Source: Limisphaerales bacterium
Lineage (GTDB): Bacteria; Verrucomicrobiota; Verrucomicrobiia; Limisphaerales; JAKEEH01
DNA: 41,077 nt
Reading direction: 5' to 3'
Assembly (NCBI GenBank): GCA_022616725.1
Contig: JAKEEH010000201.1
Span: 1 to 41,077, forward strand
Shown in pieces: positions 14,387 through 38,633 of this stretch. Positions within the stretch are counted from its first letter, which is position 1; each line of letters begins with the position of its first letter. Under the pieces are notes generated by a model. The model was not told where the DNA came from. It searched no databases and worked only from the letters and a program-made list of their open reading frames with translations. A program made the position numbers and the translations under genes.

Positions 14387-14422
14387 GGCGAAAGTGGGAA
14401 AGTGAGAGAGTGAGAAAGTGAG
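14387..14422. repeat. Octamer array / left arm of a 36-bp imperfect inverted repeat
   Basis: ggcgaaagtgggaaagtgagagagtgagaaagtgag; its reverse complement matches 14845..14880 at about 31 of 36 positions. Confidence 0.8.
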
Positions 14423-14431
14423 GGCTGCATA

Positions 14432-14839
14432 TCAGCGGTCGAGATAAGAAGCCTCCAGGAGCCACGGCGCTGGATTGTTTGCCATGACGACAAGCTTTCC
14501 AATTATGTGATCATAGCTCTGATGCAAGCGTTTCGCGAAAAGACGGTCACAGTACCGGCATTTAACGGCGTATTCGAGCCACACTTGAGTTTCAGCGGCT
14601 TCGGCTTCAGCTTCATTTAGCTTATTCACGAAGGCCGCTTTATATCGTCGGCGTCTCCAGGCTTCGGAAATACCGGCGGAAACCGATCGGGAGGAACGCC
14701 GGACCTGGTCAGTGAGAGAATACGCCTCGCTTTTCGGAAACGACTTCGACGAATCAAAAATCTCCATAGCTGCCTCAACCGAAAGTTTATAAACCTCTAG
14801 TTCCCAATGAAACTGGATTCGTTCCGGCGATCTGCTCAT
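14432..14839 (-). CDS. Four-helix-bundle protein (S23/IVP-like family)
   Basis: LEVYKLSVEAAMEIFDSSKSFPKSEAYSLTDQVRRSSRSVSAGISEAWRRRRYKAAFVNKLNEAEAEAAETQVWLEYA. Confidence 0.92.
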   Translation of the reverse strand: MSRSPERIQFHWELEVYKLSVEAAMEIFDSSKSFPKSEAYSLTDQVRRSSRSVSAGISEAWRRRRYKAAFVNKLNEAEAEAAETQVWLEYAVKCRYCDRLFAKRLHQSYDHIIGKLVVMANNPAPWLLEASYLDR

Positions 14840-14844
14840 GTTCT

Positions 14845-14880
14845 CTCACCCGCTCACTCTCTCACTTTCGCACTTTCTCC
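14845..14880. repeat. Octamer array / right arm of a 36-bp imperfect inverted repeat
   Basis: ctcacccgctcactctctcactttcgcactttctcc; inverted counterpart of 14387..14422. Confidence 0.8.
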
Positions 14881-14889
14881 CGCTCCCGC

Positions 14890-15990
14890 TCACGACCCCG
14901 CCTTCAGCCCGTTGGTCCTTTCCGGGTCGAGGTACGGCTGGGCCGCTTCGGGTGGCGCCAGTTTAACTTTGCCTCCCGGGACGACCTTTTGCGTCCCTTC
15001 CACAATGACCAACTCGCCCCCTTGCAGGCCGCTGGTGATCTCCACTTTGCCTGCCATGCGCAGCCCGGTTGTGACAGCCTTCAACTGCGCCGTATTGCCG
15101 CCGTCAATCGTATAAAGGCTGGCCTTGTCGCTGCTGATCATGACGGCGGCTTCCGGGACCAGCACAGCTTGATCGCGAACCTTTAGTGTCAAATCCAGAT
15201 TTGCAAACATGCCCGGACGCAATCGCTGCTCGGAGTTCTTGACGTAAGCTTTCACCAAAACGGTCCGCCACGCGGGATCGACGTGCGGCGACACGAAGTA
15301 AACTTCGCCCTGGAACTTCTGATCGGGATACGCCGCAACGCTCAGTTCGATGGTCTGGCCCACGCGCACTTCACTCAGGAACCGTTCGGGGACGTTGAGT
15401 TCGGCTTTGACCGGATCGAGATCCACCAGCCAGCTCAGAGTGGTGTTGCGGGCGATCACCTGCCCCGGGCTAACCTGCCGGGCGCCCATGATGCCGTCGA
15501 ACGCGGCGTGAATGCGGGCGTCCTTCATCTGACGTCTCTTCAGTTCCAGCGTGGCCTCCGCGGCATGAAATTGCGACGCGATCTGGTCAAAATCCTGCGG
15601 CGAGATCAGTTTCGAGTTGTACAGTTCCCGGCTGCGTTCGAAGTCAGCCTGTTTAAGTTTGAAATTGGCTTGCGCCTCGGCGACCGAGGCTGCCAGCTTG
15701 CTCTCGTCAAGCTTGAAAAGCAAGTGCCCTTGAGGGACACGCTGGCCTTCTTTGAAATTAATCTCCTCGACCATCCCGTCGGTGTCGGACTTGATCTCGA
15801 CCATTTCGTTGGCAGCGAGCGTGCCGACAAGGGAGAGAGTCTCGGTAACAGGCTGGCGTTTGGCTTCGACGGCAACGACCTGCACGGCGAAACCACCCGG
15901 CATGCCGGCAGTGGGAACTTTTTTCTTGCACCCTGCGATCGCAAGAGACAGTCCCGCCAGCAGCATTGTGGGGAATAAAAGCCTTCTCAT
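14890..15990 (-). CDS. Efflux RND transporter periplasmic adaptor subunit (HlyD/AcrA-type lipoprotein)
   Basis: MRRLLFPTMLLAGLSLAIAGCKKK lipobox; VSLVGTLAANEMVEIKSDTDGMVEEINFKEGQRVPQGHLLFKLDESKL. Confidence 0.94.
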   Translation of the reverse strand: MRRLLFPTMLLAGLSLAIAGCKKKVPTAGMPGGFAVQVVAVEAKRQPVTETLSLVGTLAANEMVEIKSDTDGMVEEINFKEGQRVPQGHLLFKLDESKLAASVAEAQANFKLKQADFERSRELYNSKLISPQDFDQIASQFHAAEATLELKRRQMKDARIHAAFDGIMGARQVSPGQVIARNTTLSWLVDLDPVKAELNVPERFLSEVRVGQTIELSVAAYPDQKFQGEVYFVSPHVDPAWRTVLVKAYVKNSEQRLRPGMFANLDLTLKVRDQAVLVPEAAVMISSDKASLYTIDGGNTAQLKAVTTGLRMAGKVEITSGLQGGELVIVEGTQKVVPGGKVKLAPPEAAQPYLDPERTNGLKAGS

Positions 15991-22181: not shown

Positions 22182-23660
22182 ATGTCAATGATTGCCATCA
22201 ACCCGCACGTAGCTAAACCCTTCCGATTCATGGGAATTTGGCATGCTTCCTTCTGCGCATGCAGCCGGATGATCGTGTCTCAACGCCTCTACGAGTGTCC
22301 CGCCTCGCGCCTTCGGCGCCCGGGAACAAGTGCTTTCGACCATCTGCTGCGGCTCCACTATTCGTTCCTGGTACCGGAAGGAATGCGCGTTCTTGACCTG
22401 AGCTGCGGCAACGGCGACCTGCTGGCCGCCCTCAAACCCCGGCGCGGAGTCGGCATCGATGCCAACCCGCAACTGCTCACACAGGCTCGCGAATGCCATC
22501 CAGACCTCGAGTTCGCCTCCGGCGATCAGCCGCCGAGGGAAAGCGAGAAGTTCGACTATATTTTGCTGGGCGACCTGCCTAATTACGTCACGGATGTGCA
22601 AAGCCTTCTCGAGCGCATTCACCGCCACTCTTACCAGCACACGCGAATTGTCCTGAGCCTCTTCAACCATCTCTGGCGCCCATTTGTCGCGCTTGGGCAA
22701 CGGTTGACGGGCCGCTCGGCCACTTTGCCGCAGAACTGGATTTCCGCCCGTGACATGGAGAATCTTCTCAACCTGGCAGGTTGGGAAATCATCAAGACGG
22801 ATTCGCGGATTCTCTGGCCCTTCAAAACACCGCTCCTGGAGCCCTTGTTTAACCGATGGCTTGCGCCGCTACTGAAGCATCTTTGCCTCACTGTTTTCAT
22901 GGTGGCGCGCCCGCGTCCTCTGCCGAGCCTCTATCGGAACTATACGTGCACGGTCGTCATTCCCGCGCGCAATGAAGCGGGAAACATCGAAGCAGCCGTC
23001 CAGCGCATACCCGAACTGGGGACCGGCACGGAAATCATCTTTGTCGAGGGCCATTCGACCGACAACACCTGGGAGGAAATTCAGCGCGCCAAGGACGCCT
23101 ATCCCCACCGCGACATTAAGATCATCAAACAACAGAGCCAAGGCAAAGGCGGCGCCGTTCGCGAAGCGTTTGCCCAGGCCACCGGCGATATCTTGTTCAT
23201 CCTCGACGCGGACCTCACTGTGCCGCCCGAAGACCTGACGAAATTTTACAATGTGATCTGCACCGGGACGGCCGACTTCGTCAATGGCGTTCGGCTGCTC
23301 TATCCGATGGAGAACGAGGCCATGCGCTTCCTGAATATGGTCGCCAACAAATTCTTCAGCCTCGCCTTCTCATGGCTGCTCGGTCAGCCCATCAAAGACA
23401 CTCTGTGCGGCACGAAAGTGCTCTTTCGCGCGCAATACGAACAGATCGCGCGCAATCGCAGCTATTTCGGCGACTTCGATCCGTTCGGGGATTTCGATTT
23501 GCTTTTCGGCGCGGCCAAACTAAATCTGCGCATGCTCGACCTGCCGATCCGCTACCGCGCTCGCACTTACGGCGAGACAAATATTTCCCGGTGGCGGCAC
23601 GGCTGGTTGTTGTTGCGCATGGTCCGCTTTGCGGCCATGCGCCTTAAATTTATTGGGTAA
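22182..23660 (+). CDS. Fusion of class I SAM-dependent methyltransferase and GT2 glycosyltransferase
   Basis: N-terminal MRVLDLSCGNGDLLAALKPRRGVGIDANPQLL; C-terminal CTVVIPARNEAGNIEAAVQRIPELGTGTEIIFVEGHSTDNTWEEIQ, GKGGAVREAFAQATGDILFILDADLTVPPEDL. The exact start is uncertain. Confidence 0.9.
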   Translation: MSMIAINPHVAKPFRFMGIWHASFCACSRMIVSQRLYECPASRLRRPGTSAFDHLLRLHYSFLVPEGMRVLDLSCGNGDLLAALKPRRGVGIDANPQLLTQARECHPDLEFASGDQPPRESEKFDYILLGDLPNYVTDVQSLLERIHRHSYQHTRIVLSLFNHLWRPFVALGQRLTGRSATLPQNWISARDMENLLNLAGWEIIKTDSRILWPFKTPLLEPLFNRWLAPLLKHLCLTVFMVARPRPLPSLYRNYTCTVVIPARNEAGNIEAAVQRIPELGTGTEIIFVEGHSTDNTWEEIQRAKDAYPHRDIKIIKQQSQGKGGAVREAFAQATGDILFILDADLTVPPEDLTKFYNVICTGTADFVNGVRLLYPMENEAMRFLNMVANKFFSLAFSWLLGQPIKDTLCGTKVLFRAQYEQIARNRSYFGDFDPFGDFDLLFGAAKLNLRMLDLPIRYRARTYGETNISRWRHGWLLLRMVRFAAMRLKFIG

Positions 23661-23767
23661 CCCGGAACAATACAGTCGCGCTCCCGTTTTCAAAACCGAA
23701 CGACTGGAACGATTGTCGTCGTAAGTGCCTGGTACAGCGGTGTTGAGCTGCTTGCATTTCGCGAAAT

Positions 23768-24014
23768 CGTTCGATTTTGTTCGATTTTTGTGTCAAGTAA
23801 TCCATAGCTTAGATCGGGTTGAAGAGGGATGGGTTGAAGGGTATTGACCGGCGACAAAACCACGGATTGCATGGATGCCCCGGATGAACAGACCCTACCC
23901 ACCCCCACTGGTGTTCAAAAATGTTCATTTTTGCGATTTTGCTCAGGTTTTTCACGGGTCGATGTTCAGAAATGTTCAGAAATGTTCAGAAATGTTCAAT
24001 TTTGTTCAATTTTA
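23768..24014. repeat. Decamer short tandem repeats (GTTCGATTTT / GTTCAGAAAT / GTTCAATTTT)
   Basis: gttcgattttgttcgatttt near 23768; gttcagaaat x3 then gttcaatttt x2 at 23962..24014; partial units near 23932. Confidence 0.85.
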
Positions 24015-24374
24015 TACAGTATAGGTAGGCAAGAACTTCCATCGTGCGGCAGTTTTGATGATGTCTGGGGAAAGAAGGGCTAAAGGCCATATTTAAGGCC
24101 ATAAACAAAATCTCGATACCAAATTTATTCATACGAGCAGCGGCTTCTCTAGTTGCTGCTAACGGACTTAGTATAGCATACTTGTCTCGATGTGCAAGGC
24201 AGAAATCCTTTGGCAAAACAATATTGCTATTGTCCGAAGCGGAGATTCTGTATTGTGAATTGGGATGAATGGGAAAGATGGGATGGATGGGTTTCAGACG
24301 GCTGATGTCCCAAGATGAAGGATGGGTTCAAAGGTTTTTAAACGCGAAGGCCGCGAAGAATGCGAGGGTTGGAA

Positions 24375-24522
24375 CTACTTCTGGGCCTGACCGCCGGGCA
24401 TGAACCGCTGCTCCCAGACCTCAAAATTGCCGTCGGGCTCGGCATGTATTTGGCCGGAACCGTCGCTGAAACCGTAGGCTTTGGCCCATTTTCCGTTCTC
24501 GGTCCGCCATGGCGGCCGCTAA
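24375..24522 (-). pseudogene. C-terminal fragment of an unidentified protein
   Basis: Open frame after a stop: RPPWRTENGKWAKAYGFSDGSGQIHAEPDGNFEVWEQRFMPGGQAQK-stop, protein-like but with no start. Confidence 0.5.
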
Positions 24523-24557
24523 ATTAGAGGAAGTAGCAAGAGTTCGCGCTAAGAGGA

Positions 24558-24965
24558 ATGCACAAAGAGCAATTTCGGGACGCCTCGGTTGTAAGACAAA
24601 GCACTGCCATGTCGTTCGATGCTGGAAGAAGTAGAATGAGCAAGTGGACACAGCTTCGGCTTCTTTTCAGGGCCTTTGCGTGTCGTGATTTGGAAGCGCT
24701 TCATGATATTGCTGCGCATTATGCTTCGTCGTACGAAGATGGCTTGTTGCCACGCAAGTATTACGATAGGGCGTTTCGCTACTACGAATATGGTGCAATG
24801 AAGGGGAATCCAGCATGCCAGTACGATTACGGCTTCATGTTGATTTTGGGGAGCGCTGGGGTGCAGGACAAAGAGCGTGGGGTGTTTTGGATCAAAAAGT
24901 CTGCTGAAGCGGGCGACTTGGCTGCCAAAGATTTTTTCGCTGATTACCCTCAATCGGAAGAGTGA
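24558..24965 (+). CDS. Sel1-like repeat protein
   Basis: YYDRAFRYYEYGAMKGNPACQYDYGFMLILGSAGVQDKERGVFWIKKSAEAGDLAAKDFFADY; a later start (24636, MSKWTQ) is possible. Confidence 0.75.
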   Translation: MHKEQFRDASVVRQSTAMSFDAGRSRMSKWTQLRLLFRAFACRDLEALHDIAAHYASSYEDGLLPRKYYDRAFRYYEYGAMKGNPACQYDYGFMLILGSAGVQDKERGVFWIKKSAEAGDLAAKDFFADYPQSEE

Positions 24966-33613: not shown

Positions 33614-36600
33614 TTAGTGTTGGTGGGCATGTCCGGCTGCAGCAGCAGCCTTCGGCACGGCTCCGGAATCGGTTTCGAGAAATGCGTCAAGGTCTTTCAC
33701 GACGACGAGTTGCCCGAACATTACCTTCCAGTGTTCGGGGTACGTGCAGACGTATTCATACACGCCTGGCCGCTCGGGCGCGGCGACTTTCAGCCGCACC
33801 TTGTCTCCGGGCTCGACGAGTTTGGACGCCGCAATAATCTTCTTGCTCTTCGGGATATAGGCCCGCCCTTCCTTGTCGGGCGTGGGCTGCATTTTGTCGG
33901 CGGCTGTACCGACTTCCTCGCGCGCGCCCGGCTCAACAATGACAATGTTGTGCGGCATCATATCGACGTTTTCGAAGATGATCTCGAACGGTTTCCCGGC
34001 TTCGACGACGATCCGGGTTACATCGAAGCGCATCTGTTCCCTAACGCTCTTGATCGCAAAGACCCGCACGCCCAGGCCATTGAGCGCTTTGCGTATGCGC
34101 AGCGCCTCCGGTTGCGGCAAGAGGGTGGTCATTTCAGTCCCGGCTTGCACCGTCTCGATAAATTCCTGCGAGCTGCGTTCGCCCGACGGAACCGACTGGG
34201 CCCAGGCGAGAATGGCTTCCGCGACGGGGCCGGCGGCCTCCTTGTCCCAGGTGTCGCGCGGAAGTTGCAACACCGCGCCTGCGGTCGCTGACAACTCCCG
34301 GCCCTCCCGCAGGTAACCGGCCAATAAGGCGAAATTCTCCGCCGCATGGTCGGCACCCATCAGCGGCAGAGCCCGCAAAACGGCGCGACGCACGTCGCCC
34401 GAGGCGCTGACGTCTTTCAGCGCCGCTGTCAGCCACGGCTGAAATTTTGCCCGCATCTCCGGATCGGTAAGCAAAATGATCGAGTCGATGAGTGTCACCC
34501 GCGCCGACGAGTCGGTCCGCGTGTCGTTCCAGGCCCGTTCGGGGCCGCCGTCCGATGCCACGAGGGTTGCGTAGGCAGCCCGTTTCACCGGGGCATGACT
34601 CGCGCTACGGGAAAGCTCAGCGATTTCCTGCCGCGCATTGGCAAGACTGCCCGGATTCGCAGTCAGCAGCAGCGCGAAATCGCTGGCAACATTTGCCGGC
34701 CCTTTGCTGGCCTCCACACGACGCAGCGCGGCAACTGTCTCCGTGACGCGGTCTGTTTTGCGGAGTTTGGCCAATTCTTCGATGGCCGCGCCGCGTGTGT
34801 TCACGTCATAGCTCTTGCGCTCCAGGCGGGCCAGGAGCACCGGCTCCGAATTCGGGGCGTCCAGCAATTCTTTGTCCGAAAACCTTGGCAGGGCAGCAGC
34901 AAAAGCTTTTGGATCCTTCGGAAGAAAAAAGCCTTTTATATGTTTTTTGAGCTGCCGGGTCGTCTCGTTGAACGTGTAATCAAGGTAGTAATCGGTATCA
35001 TACTTCAGGATTTCATAAGCGATCTCCATCGCCTCAGCCGTTTCGAAAAAACTCGCGGCCCGCACGGCTTCGAGCCGCACGCGCGGCGAGTTGTCGTTGG
35101 CCGCCGCGCGCAACCGCGCCAGCGGCTGGCTGACCCGGTCGCGCCAGTAACATAGCACGCGCACTGCCGCCGCCCTGGCCCGCGGCTCGGGTGATTGGAG
35201 CATCTGCTCGAGCAGCGGTTCATTAATGACGTTATGGTGCTGATGCACCCAGAGCGCCTCGGCGAAGTGGTGTTGGTCCTGGATCTTTTTGGGACCGAAT
35301 TGCTTCGCCCATTTCTGGACGGCGGCAATCACCTGTTTGGTGTCGCGCCCGCCCAATTCAATTCTCGCGCGGGTGCGGACGTTGTTTTCAGGCTCCTTGA
35401 GGAGGTCGAGGAGTTTGTCGATTGATTGCCCCGCTACCTTTGGCGGCTTCGGCAACTCTCTGCCTTCATAAGTGATCCTGTAAATGCGCCCATGTTGATG
35501 ATCGCGGTTTGGGTCGCGAATGTGGTGCTGCATGTGACCGATGATCGGGTTGTGCCAGTCCAGGAAATAGACCGACCCATCGGGCGCCACGTCCACGGCC
35601 GAGGGCCGGAAATTGGGATCGTCCGACTGCACGAGTGGCGGCTCGAGCGTTTCGCCCCACAGGCCCGAGCCTTCCTCCTTCACCTTGACGCGATAAATTC
35701 CCTGGAACCCAATCACGTTGCAGTTCAGGAAATTGCCCTGGAACTCTTCGGGAAAGTGGCGGCTCGATAGAATGCCCGTCCCGGGGCAAGGGCGCGAAGG
35801 CCGCTCCCAGAATTGCTTCAGGCTCGAATGCTTCGCCGGGTAATCGAGGTGGCCGCTGAACGCCGGACCGAAGTACGTGTTGTTCCCGGTCGCGTCGGTG
35901 ACGAGATCATTGCCCCAGTGATCAAACACCCGTCCATGCGGGTTGGCAAAACCGTAGGAGATGTAGGTCTCGAATTTCAGGGTGCGCGGCTCGAAGCGGA
36001 ATATCGCCCCGTCATTGTTGCGTACCGGCGGTCCCCAGGCTGTTTCCGCCTGAGTGCGGTGGAAGACGCCATCGCTGAGGTAAATGGCCCCGCCGGGTTC
36101 CAACACCAGCGAGTTCGCCGTGTGGTGCGAGTCCGCCGAATCAAGTCCATTGAGGATGCGCTCCTTCCAGTCCGCCTTGCCGTCGCCATCGGTATCGCGC
36201 ACAAACCACACGTCTGGCGCCTGCACCAGGATCACGCCGTCCTTATAGAACTGGAAGCCGGTCGGGCAATTGAGATCGTCGATGAACGGCGTGCACTTGT
36301 CGGCTTTGCCATCGTTGTTCGTGTCCTCGAACACGAGCAGGCTGTCGCCTTGTTTGCTTTGAGGCAGGCGCTCCGGGTAGTTCGGCCACGCCGCCACCCA
36401 AAGGCGGCCTTTCGTGTCAAAGGCCATCTGGACCGGGTTGGCCAGCAACGGAAACTCCTCCTCGGAGGCGAACAGGTTCGCTTTGCAGCCCGGCGGCATT
36501 TGCATGCGCTTGATCGCCGCTTCTCCGCTCAAAAAGACGTGCGACCCGTCCGATTGTCGGCCGGGCTTGTTGCTCTTCACTTCGACCGGCGCAGGGAGAT

Positions 36601-37540
36601 TGTCGTCTTTCACCGCGAGATCGCCACCCTGCGCCACGGCCCAAACGCGTTTGTCACGATTGGCGGTCATCACGTCCCGCATTTCCATCTCGCGCTGCAT
36701 CGCGTCGCGATTCTTTATGCCGTCGAATTTCAGATGGGAACGCCCGCCATAGACGTTGTATCCGTCCACCGTTCTGTAGCGCGAAAACCACACCGCGTTC
36801 TTCTCGTTGACCGCAGCCCGAAGTTTCTCAAAAGCCCGCCCGCGCGTTGCCGGTGGTTCTCCGAACAACTGGCGAAACATCCCGGGCGCCAGCGCCCTGT
36901 AACCGTCGTCCCGCAGGTGAACGGCGTTGATCGTTAGCGGCTCCTTTGCCTGCGCATAAGCCTGTTGCGACACGCTGAACAGATCGACAAATGGCACGTT
37001 ATTGGCCTTCGCGATCTCCTCCATCGCATCCACGTAGTATTTGATCTGGTGGTTCAGTTCGTCGGCGTTTGGGAAATTCGGGTCCGAATGGCGCTCCGCG
37101 GCCGTCGGCGAGAATAACACCAATCGCGGCGCTCCCTTCCCGCTATAATCCGCGCTCGCGGTTTCTTTGATGAATTTCTCCACGTCCTTGCGGAACTTCT
37201 CGAGACCGTCCTGGCCCCGAAACGATTCGTTATAGCCGAAAAATGCGAACACGACCGTCGCGCCAGTGTGCTTGAGCCATTCGTCCGGCGGGCCAAACGC
37301 TTCCGAGCGCGACCGCGTGACCAATTCATCGCCGGCGAAGCCGAGATTGCGCACCACGAGTTGATGTTGCGGGAGTTTTGTGTGCAGCAGCGTCTCGAAA
37401 TAGCCCGAATGCTGCATCCGGTCGGCCAGGCCATTGCCGATGATGGCGATGTGATCGTCCTTCTCCAACGTGAGCGCAGGCGCGCCGACCGCCGGCGCCG
37501 CATTCAGCACAAGCAAGGCTAATGTCCAGAAACTTTTCAT
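33614..37540 (-). CDS. Multidomain secreted protein: SGNH/GDSL hydrolase + PVC-type membrane-bound dehydrogenase-like beta-propeller + HEAT repeats + C-terminal cupredoxin
   Basis: IIGNGLADRMQHSGYFETLL; NPVQMAFDTKGRLWVAAWPNYPERLPQSK; HEAT-like repeats mid-protein; MPHNIVIVEPGA...VYEYVCTYPEHWKVMFGQLVV (His ... Cys-x4-His-x3-Met type 1 copper pattern). Confidence 0.9.
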   Translation of the reverse strand: MKSFWTLALLVLNAAPAVGAPALTLEKDDHIAIIGNGLADRMQHSGYFETLLHTKLPQHQLVVRNLGFAGDELVTRSRSEAFGPPDEWLKHTGATVVFAFFGYNESFRGQDGLEKFRKDVEKFIKETASADYSGKGAPRLVLFSPTAAERHSDPNFPNADELNHQIKYYVDAMEEIAKANNVPFVDLFSVSQQAYAQAKEPLTINAVHLRDDGYRALAPGMFRQLFGEPPATRGRAFEKLRAAVNEKNAVWFSRYRTVDGYNVYGGRSHLKFDGIKNRDAMQREMEMRDVMTANRDKRVWAVAQGGDLAVKDDNLPAPVEVKSNKPGRQSDGSHVFLSGEAAIKRMQMPPGCKANLFASEEEFPLLANPVQMAFDTKGRLWVAAWPNYPERLPQSKQGDSLLVFEDTNNDGKADKCTPFIDDLNCPTGFQFYKDGVILVQAPDVWFVRDTDGDGKADWKERILNGLDSADSHHTANSLVLEPGGAIYLSDGVFHRTQAETAWGPPVRNNDGAIFRFEPRTLKFETYISYGFANPHGRVFDHWGNDLVTDATGNNTYFGPAFSGHLDYPAKHSSLKQFWERPSRPCPGTGILSSRHFPEEFQGNFLNCNVIGFQGIYRVKVKEEGSGLWGETLEPPLVQSDDPNFRPSAVDVAPDGSVYFLDWHNPIIGHMQHHIRDPNRDHQHGRIYRITYEGRELPKPPKVAGQSIDKLLDLLKEPENNVRTRARIELGGRDTKQVIAAVQKWAKQFGPKKIQDQHHFAEALWVHQHHNVINEPLLEQMLQSPEPRARAAAVRVLCYWRDRVSQPLARLRAAANDNSPRVRLEAVRAASFFETAEAMEIAYEILKYDTDYYLDYTFNETTRQLKKHIKGFFLPKDPKAFAAALPRFSDKELLDAPNSEPVLLARLERKSYDVNTRGAAIEELAKLRKTDRVTETVAALRRVEASKGPANVASDFALLLTANPGSLANARQEIAELSRSASHAPVKRAAYATLVASDGGPERAWNDTRTDSSARVTLIDSIILLTDPEMRAKFQPWLTAALKDVSASGDVRRAVLRALPLMGADHAAENFALLAGYLREGRELSATAGAVLQLPRDTWDKEAAGPVAEAILAWAQSVPSGERSSQEFIETVQAGTEMTTLLPQPEALRIRKALNGLGVRVFAIKSVREQMRFDVTRIVVEAGKPFEIIFENVDMMPHNIVIVEPGAREEVGTAADKMQPTPDKEGRAYIPKSKKIIAASKLVEPGDKVRLKVAAPERPGVYEYVCTYPEHWKVMFGQLVVVKDLDAFLETDSGAVPKAAAAAGHAHQH

Positions 37541-37584
37541 TTGTAACGGTTCAATGACTCAACGATTCAACGGTTCAACGGTTA
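37541..37584 (-). repeat. Octamer array filling the ThuA / SGNH-dehydrogenase intercistronic gap
   Basis: Minus strand CTGTAACC GTTGAACC GTTGAATC GTTGAGTC ATTGAACC GTTACAA-ATG. Confidence 0.85.
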
Positions 37585-38577
37585 CAGTTTGTGATCCGAG
37601 ACCTTGACGCCCTTTCTAAATGTGCCGAATCCGAAAAAGGTCGGCTTGAACTCCCCAACGTAATCCACCGCTGCCTTCGCCGGAACCTCCAGGCCAGTCA
37701 GCCAATAACAGGCGTTCACGAACAGCCGCCGCAAATCCTCGCTTTGCAAATCCACCGCCGCGCCTATCGTTGATGTCAATGCTTTTGTTGTGTTCCCAGT
37801 TTCCCATTTGTATTCCCGCACCCACACCAGCGGCATGATCGACTTGTTATAATTCGGCGGATCGTCCGGTTTCATCCCGGTGAGCACGAGTCCGTGCAGT
37901 AGTACGACATCAGCGGGCTTCAAGCGTACGATTCCGTACACGTCGGAACGACCCCAGACATCTCTCACGCTTCGCAGCACCGGATGCTTTTCCTGCGTCC
38001 CATCCACCAGGCCCCGCGCGCTCTCTTTCGCGTGTCCGCCGTGATGGCTGACCCACGTGTCTCCCAGCACTTGCTGTCCAAACCCGCCAGGCCAGTCGCT
38101 GCTGTTGTGTCCGAATTTCGCATATGGACTGCTTTTGTTGCGCCTGTAATCGAATGCGTGCGTCGAGGTCCGGATCGCGATGATTGGCTTGCCCGCCTGC
38201 AAATAATCAACAAGATGTTTCATATCCGCGTCGGGCAGCTCGCGAAAGCGGAACTGGCAAATCACAAGGTCCGCCGACCCGACGAGGTGCATCCCCGGGA
38301 CATTAGTCTGGTTGTTGGGGTTGATCGTCCCATCGGCGTCCTGCGAGAACAGGACCGTGCACTTGAAACCGTGGCGTTGCGACAGAATCTTGCCGAGCAT
38401 CGGCAACCCCTCTTCGGAGCGATACTCTTCGTCCCCTGCCATCAGGACAATGTGTTTGCCCTTTCGGGCTCCTTCCGCCCCCTCATACACGACCCACTGC
38501 TCGGCTGCTCCAGCCTGGACCGCAATCACAAGCGCCATTGCGCAAACGATCCCGAAGGATCTTCGCCACATGACCAT
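37582..38577 (-). CDS. ThuA-domain (trehalose-utilisation-like) protein
   Basis: KHIVLMAGDEEYRSEEGLPMLGKILSQRHGFKCTVLFS, ADLVICQFRFRELPDADMKHLVDYLQAGKPIIAIRTSTHAFDY. Confidence 0.92.
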   Translation of the reverse strand: MVMWRRSFGIVCAMALVIAVQAGAAEQWVVYEGAEGARKGKHIVLMAGDEEYRSEEGLPMLGKILSQRHGFKCTVLFSQDADGTINPNNQTNVPGMHLVGSADLVICQFRFRELPDADMKHLVDYLQAGKPIIAIRTSTHAFDYRRNKSSPYAKFGHNSSDWPGGFGQQVLGDTWVSHHGGHAKESARGLVDGTQEKHPVLRSVRDVWGRSDVYGIVRLKPADVVLLHGLVLTGMKPDDPPNYNKSIMPLVWVREYKWETGNTTKALTSTIGAAVDLQSEDLRRLFVNACYWLTGLEVPAKAAVDYVGEFKPTFFGFGTFRKGVKVSDHKL

Positions 38578-38633
38578 TTTACGATTCAACGGTTTAACGG
38601 TTTTAACGATTCAACGATTTAACCACTCAACAC
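38578..38633 (-). repeat. Octamer array in the ThuA leader
   Basis: Minus strand GTTGAGTG GTTAAATC GTTGAATC GTTAAAACC GTTAAACC GTTGAATC GTAAA-ATG. Confidence 0.85.

Follow-up and report, generated by a model that had tools for sequence, protein, structure and literature searches.

Two octamer arrays border a ThuA-like gene

The window, i.e., the whole stretch of 41,077 nucleotides analyzed here, corresponds to contig 325 in the draft genome (6.07 Mb, 583 contigs) of a Limisphaerales bacterium. On its minus strand, a ThuA-like gene (37582..38577) is followed downstream by a gene (33614..37540) encoding a GDSL/SGNH-DUF7133-HEAT-cupredoxin protein, an architecture associated with Verrucomicrobiota and their relatives. 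Open reading frames and Pfam searches bear out the ThuA/SGNH pair proposed by a model that had seen only the letters (hereafter, the sequence-only reading), the PF06283 match of the ThuA-like product being weak (E=5e-5, below the curated cut-off). A short tandem array lies on either side of the ThuA-like gene. Array A (37541..37584, minus strand) is situated between its stop codon and the ATG of the downstream gene and is composed of four full octamers with partial edge units; read on the minus strand, it runs GTAACC-GTTGAACC-GTTGAATC-GTTGAGTC-ATTGAACC-GTTACAA-ATG and wholly occupies the 41-bp gap from the stop codon (37582-37584) to the ATG at 37540. Array B (about 38577..38631, minus strand) contains approximately seven units, one of them a 9-mer, and touches the ATG of the ThuA-like gene at 38577, with the minus-strand reading GTTGAGTG-GTTAAATC-GTTGAATC-GTTAAAACC-GTTAAACC-GTTGAATC-GTAAA-ATG. 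Both arrays point in the same direction on the minus strand, which is the strand of the genes, and thus constitute a direct and not an inverted pair; no IVP gene lies between them.

TRF independently detected array A (37545-37583, period 8) and array B (38576-38631). Five GTTRAA cores are present in array B, where zero are expected, and when the window was shuffled 200 times under a Markov-1 model, GTTRAA cores at period 8 never reached three in a row, runs of two averaging 0.07. Both arrays are far above chance expectation, and the two period-8 arrays of the sequence-only reading are real, as sequence, TRF and shuffles agree. An Rfam scan of the window returned one tRNA and nothing else, with no rRNA, and a known RNA family was accordingly rejected as the identity of the arrays.

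The arrays belong to a dispersed family with a sporadic distribution

In the host genome as a whole, exact GTTRAAYC-GTTRAAYC dimers occur 192 times (121+71, overlapping positions counted), versus 0 for the reversed pattern. Eight is the most frequent tandem period in 644 kb of its sampled contigs, and the period-8 units found there (GTTGAATC, GTTGAACC, GTTAAATC, GTTGAAGG and GTTGAAGA) are composed of a GTTRAA core and two variable bases; one octamer family dominates these contigs, and several unrelated units are also present. Arrays of at least three cores number 53 in the sampled contigs, whereas three control words yielded 0, 0 and 1; these contigs are enriched for array carriers, and their array densities are not genome averages. 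The unit GTTRAAYC given in the sequence-only reading describes both window arrays; as the general form, GTTRAA plus two variable bases fits better, because arrays of GTTGAAGG, GTTGAAGA and GTTAAAAG exist in the same genome. Most arrays of this genome are solo. A comparison of the flanks of 96 of its arrays produced strong matches mostly over the arrays and few in the flanks, and a larger repeated element around the solo arrays was therefore rejected.

Among 58 genomes of the same order, the dimer was detected in 16, with more than 10 positions in four only, the host genome included, and in a broader sample of the phylum a single one of the 389 remaining genomes has a trimer. When species genomes from many phyla were scanned, the exact octamer trimer turned up in no fewer than 108 stretches, their sources including Verrucomicrobiota, Saprospiraceae, Flavobacteriaceae, Bacteroidales, Balneolaceae, Calditrichia, Chlorobiota, Anaerolineales, Gemmatimonadetes, Desulfuromonadales and other groups, as well as isolates of Leeuwenhoekiella and Flavobacterium. 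The genomes are drafts, and many of the loci discussed here were picked for carrying arrays. The distribution is one of sporadic expansion and not of single-clade inheritance; absence of the motif elsewhere, which the sequence-only reading had named as counting against it, is the opposite of this genome-wide occurrence in many phyla.

In the host genome, arrays favor whichever contig strand is richer in G (21 vs. 3 at |skew| ≥0.02), and neighboring arrays more than 500 bp apart share the same direction in 15 cases vs. 3 (contigs L031-L088 and the window). A general replication-strand bias was rejected, since other lineages show none or the opposite of this preference. Telomere-like contig ends were likewise rejected: in a Calditrichia assembly, the arrays at contig ends run in both directions, so these ends look like assembly breaks. 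Runs of GTTGAATC are a likely reason for contig breaks in some array-bearing genomes. Other dispersed repeats of approximately 40-80 bp, in dozens of copies, were observed in the genus represented by the AV genomes (L276, query 106-160; L300, query 611-725).

Position relative to genes

The position of 63 arrays was surveyed in approximately 890 kb of the host genome and its relative G034, with genes called by a simple codon model and starts therefore approximate. Forty-two of the arrays are intergenic, though intergenic sequence accounts for only 21% of the total, and inside the intergenic space their placement tracks the bases available per gap type. Within 20 bp of a start lie 6 of 42 arrays and within 20 bp of a stop 8 of 30; between codirectional genes, 8 arrays are sense and 14 antisense. 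Most arrays being just upstream of starts and in forward orientation, the pattern of TAACTGA-type repeats, is not what GTTRAA arrays display. Same-direction arrays on both sides were found for four sampled genes with unrelated products, the ThuA-like gene included, and such bracketing would sometimes be expected from a family that settles in gaps.

Long open frames contain 37 of the 219 arrays examined. The clear cases concern conserved genes, identified from the translated sequence, in which the array is in frame, among them leuS (AV4 and NGEE_A_bin31; L111, L189), thiC (AV4, AV7 and AV2; L142, L164) and nuoN (two arrays in the host genome; L040). In these clear cases the GATTCAAC strand is the coding one; it is stop-free in every frame and encodes the peptide DSTIQRFN, whereas the opposite strand has TGA in all frames. 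The leuS array directly precedes PGVDLYVGGTEH in two different genomes, and the thiC array is located within a loop variable across all relatives, where the length difference between species, 15 bp, keeps the frame. This orientation pattern is what would be left by purifying selection acting on an insertion-prone element, and we propose that the intergenic bias of the arrays reflects purging of insertions into genes, those that place the stop-free GATTCAAC strand on the coding side being spared.

Inverted pairs and the small genes between them

When opposed arrays lie within 150 bp of each other, GTTRAA precedes TTYAAC in 40 unique pairs, compared with 3 in the reverse order (p=9e-5 on the first 26 pairs), a single polarity that would not be expected from a hairpin alone. 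The loops have a median length of 35 bp and are mostly unrelated between sites, while common to orthologues; with a median local score of 5, the loops of the 40 pairs mostly lack the homologous interior that copies of a MITE or insertion sequence would share. Integron attC and core sites (GTTRRRY) were rejected as a match, since the box order is opposite (GTTRAA then TTYAAC, not RYYYAAC then GTTRRRY) and GTTGAAGG units break the Y of GTTRRRY.

Arms of a comparable design surround another gene of the window, an S23/IVP four-helix-bundle gene (23S rRNA IVP) at 14432..14839 on the minus strand (PF05635, E=5.4e-25; TIGR02436, 84.7 bits vs. a cut-off of 24; PDB relatives 2rld and 2gsc). The bAvd protein of diversity-generating retroelements belongs to the same four-helix-bundle superfamily, its fold being related to that of the IVP cargo protein. 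The left arm (14388..14424, plus strand; TRF 14390-14422) consists of tandem GAAAGTGA-type units, and the right arm (14840..14890, minus strand; TRF 14842-14879) carries the inverted GAAAGTGA-type unit (TCTCTCAC / CACTTTC), the two arms reaching an inverted score of 26. In the RNA fold of this element (-179.8 kcal/mol, z -3.4), the arms form one long stem. The host genome has five matches to the PF05635 family (one below the family cut-off), all of which, by eye, have inverted short tandem repeats on both sides; the unit differs at each of them, and 3 of the 5 pass the score threshold of 21 described below. GTTRAA arms are absent from all five IVP-family genes of this genome.

For 79 PF05635 genes from 14 genomes, the 260 bp upstream were aligned with the reverse complement of the 260 bp downstream; the threshold was set at a score of 21, approximately the 99th percentile of mismatched pairs. 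Inverted flanks at or above this score were found for 41 of the 79 IVP genes, a few of which are extended alignments of low identity and not clean arrays, vs. 1 of 225 control genes from the host genome and G034 (p=2e-27); mismatched flanks from the same genome reach it in 5%. Same-strand similarity of the flanks is less frequent (12 of 79). The arms flanking IVP genes have units of 7-9 bp that are specific to the element. Viewed in gene direction, the upstream flanks are G-rich (skew +0.19) and the downstream flanks C-rich (-0.12), with controls near 0; the polarity of the GTTRAA pairs thus extends to other units. Genes of the GxxExxY family (TIGR04256) present a similar picture, with inverted short tandem arms in 14 of 29 vs. 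2%, and with CACAGAT-, CACGAAT-, CGCAAAG- and ACAGGAT-like units (loci L356-L385; genomes G000, G034, G446-G450, G452, G454 and G458-G461). GTTRAA arms themselves directly flank IVP genes in G034 (C22), AV7 (C373), G460 (C55) and a member of Desulfuromonadales (L132). Across the order, IVP genes are present in 15 of 16 genomes with GTTRAA arrays and in 29 of 42 without; this difference is not significant (p=0.08), and IVP genes were rejected as a predictor of the arrays. A search of open PubMed Central text yielded nothing that links short tandem arrays to either gene family, IVP or GxxExxY.

An empty site and a change of arms

Two junctions within one genus illustrate how such elements vary between relatives. 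Between kdsB and pyrG, G462 has three octamers, AV7 a PF05635/TIGR02436 gene between GTTRAA arms, and AV5 the gene and the right arm. At the other junction, AV5 (L272) carries an IVP element of approximately 500 bp between two genes, while in G462 (L404) the stop and start of the same two genes overlap (GTGTGGGGATGAGATTT), with no array. An insertion with a homologous gene is present at this site in AV4 (L401), both of its arms being AACGCGG-type vs. AGTGCGG-type in AV5, and in AV2 (L403) most of the gene has been lost and the array retained. The orthologous empty site in G462 shows that arms and gene arrive as one insertion. The four-genome comparison further indicates that the arms travel with the gene and match within an element, and that gene loss leaves arrays behind, which offers one route from a full element to a solo array. 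This is the only clean empty site found; at a second candidate, which is not clean, two species have an IVP gene where G462 has another small gene. For the array elements, neither a transposase nor a clear target-site duplication was identified, the one empty site showing only a 4-bp overlap.

Interpretation of the window arrays

Considering these observations together, we favor, with a probability of roughly 0.58, the reading in which both arrays of the window represent solo copies from a selfish, dispersed family of short tandem arrays, whose fuller form is a hairpin. The family would insert or nucleate at many places, mostly intergenic; the hairpin would comprise an array, a loop and an inverted copy of the array, and the loop would hold either a small ORF, in most cases S23/IVP and elsewhere GxxExxY, or unique DNA of approximately 30-50 bp. 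Copying or a mobile short-repeat family had been among the suggestions of the sequence-only reading, and it is supported by the dispersal, the occurrence in many phyla, the insertions in conserved genes, and the orthologous sites at which arrays are present or absent or differ in their unit. The dispersed arrays look like selfish insertions, not gene switches, and those around the ThuA-like gene are ordinary members of the dispersed short-array family, for which no function has been demonstrated. The family is probably related to free-standing elements resembling the intervening sequences (IVS) of 23S rRNA; the window arrays may either derive from IVP-type hairpin elements or be alike in growth mode only. 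Counted against the selfish-family reading are the direct orientation of the window arrays, the solo state of most arrays in the host genome, the IVP genes of this genome that lack GTTRAA arms, the failure to identify a transposase or clear target duplication, the frequency of IVP genes across the order with or without GTTRAA arrays, and the mostly unrelated loops of geneless hairpins, which are unlike copies of one transposon.

As to mechanism, arms that are alike within an element, with units differing between elements, suggest that the two arms were probably copied together or one from the other. We infer a common process behind solo arrays and hairpin elements, namely mobility, with the four-helix protein as a participant. 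Synthesis at both break ends, or arm-from-arm copying, would fit the fixed polarity, the unrelated loops and the units specific to each element better than a classical transposon does, and slippage with hairpin-templated correction is a possible source of the arms. More speculatively, and with little probability in our estimate, the S23/IVP and GxxExxY genes could be cargo of an undescribed class of bacterial mobile elements with ends synthesized at the break, where both 3' ends would grow by tandem 7-9 bp units, with capture of the loop DNA between them. If true, synthesized ends would account for the fixed polarity, the unrelated loops and the element-specific unit common to both arms, and solo arrays would be sites at which only one end was extended.

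Plain microsatellite growth, in which chance GTTRAA octamers are expanded by replication slippage in many independent local events within a slippage-prone lineage, is an unlikely alternative. Copy number differs between sister species, and such change can be explained by slippage without mobility; several unrelated units coexist per genome, and long simple-sequence repeats of 5-11 nt are known in scattered bacteria (PMC4679880). Slippage, however, sits poorly with a single octamer family that is dominant in the host genome and recurrent in distant phyla, with whole arms and a gene present where a relative has no array, with inverted pairs of a single polarity, and with both arms changing together between species. 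A classical MITE or insertion sequence, its octamers incidental to terminal inverted repeats and its transposase supplied in trans, would explain the inverted arms, the cargo gene in some elements and the empty site; we consider it improbable, as the loops of separate copies are mostly unrelated, the arm unit varies by element even in one genome, and no consistent target duplication was seen. Least probable, in our view very much so, is the regulatory leader or intercistronic element of the sequence-only reading, with a protein binding the octamers in mRNA or DNA near starts as proposed for the TAACTGA repeats of Beggiatoaceae: both window arrays do adjoin start codons and the majority of TAACTGA sets lie just upstream of starts (PMC4679880), but genome-wide neither starts over stops nor the sense strand is preferred, and some arrays are within coding regions. 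Array positions random relative to genes had been named in advance as speaking against the earlier reading; this is essentially what was found, and it bears on the regulatory part. Octamers of the GTTRAA kind therefore call for caution before they are interpreted as regulatory sites.

Comparison with known systems

In the open PubMed Central text, the nearest works concern the IVS of 23S rRNA and the TAACTGA repeats. The IVS of Coxiella burnetii has a 28-bp terminal stem and is excised by RNase III (PMC4990558). In an IVS with an S23/IVP ORF, as in the hairpin elements, complementary termini pair into one long stem around a small ORF for a four-helix bundle, and IVS are also sporadically distributed and suspected to be selfish or mobile (PMC4990558). 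The window element at 14388-14890 possesses such an ORF and complementary termini, which arrays A and B do not. None of this lies inside 23S rRNA: the IVS resides in rRNA, whereas the elements described here are found between or inside protein genes, and their stem is built of tandem arrays whose 7-9 bp unit is particular to each element. The function and origin of IVS are still called unclear (PMC4990558), and the origin and movement of the S23-bearing IVS have been a long-standing question since their discovery in 23S rRNA. Now that free-standing copies carrying array arms, one empty site and orthologous insertions with different arms are at hand, IVS movement becomes testable in genomes and in the laboratory.

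The arrays themselves resemble the TAACTGA heptamer direct repeats of Beggiatoaceae, Cyanobacteria and Bacteroidetes (MacGregor 2015, PMC4679880), which are short tandem intergenic arrays with many sets per genome, scattered across phyla; the GTTRAAYC arrays differ in having an 8-bp unit and no start-codon enrichment, and the TAACTGA study does not report inverted pairing around cargo genes (PMC4679880). Long simple sequence repeats (LSSR) and the cyanobacterial STRR are similar in their tandem 5-11 bp units and lineage-specific abundance, and the arrays described here are, as in LSSR, tandem runs beyond chance in their genome; LSSR and STRR are, however, catalogued as single arrays, whereas those reported here also form polarized inverted arms around small genes. 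Several short tandem families also accumulate elsewhere in the window: the gene-poor interval 23640-24560 contains adjacent GTTGAAGG-like, ATGTTCAGAA (x3.7), TGTTCAATTT, GATGGGAA-like and AACCACGGATTGCATGGATG families and looks like a graveyard of short-array elements.
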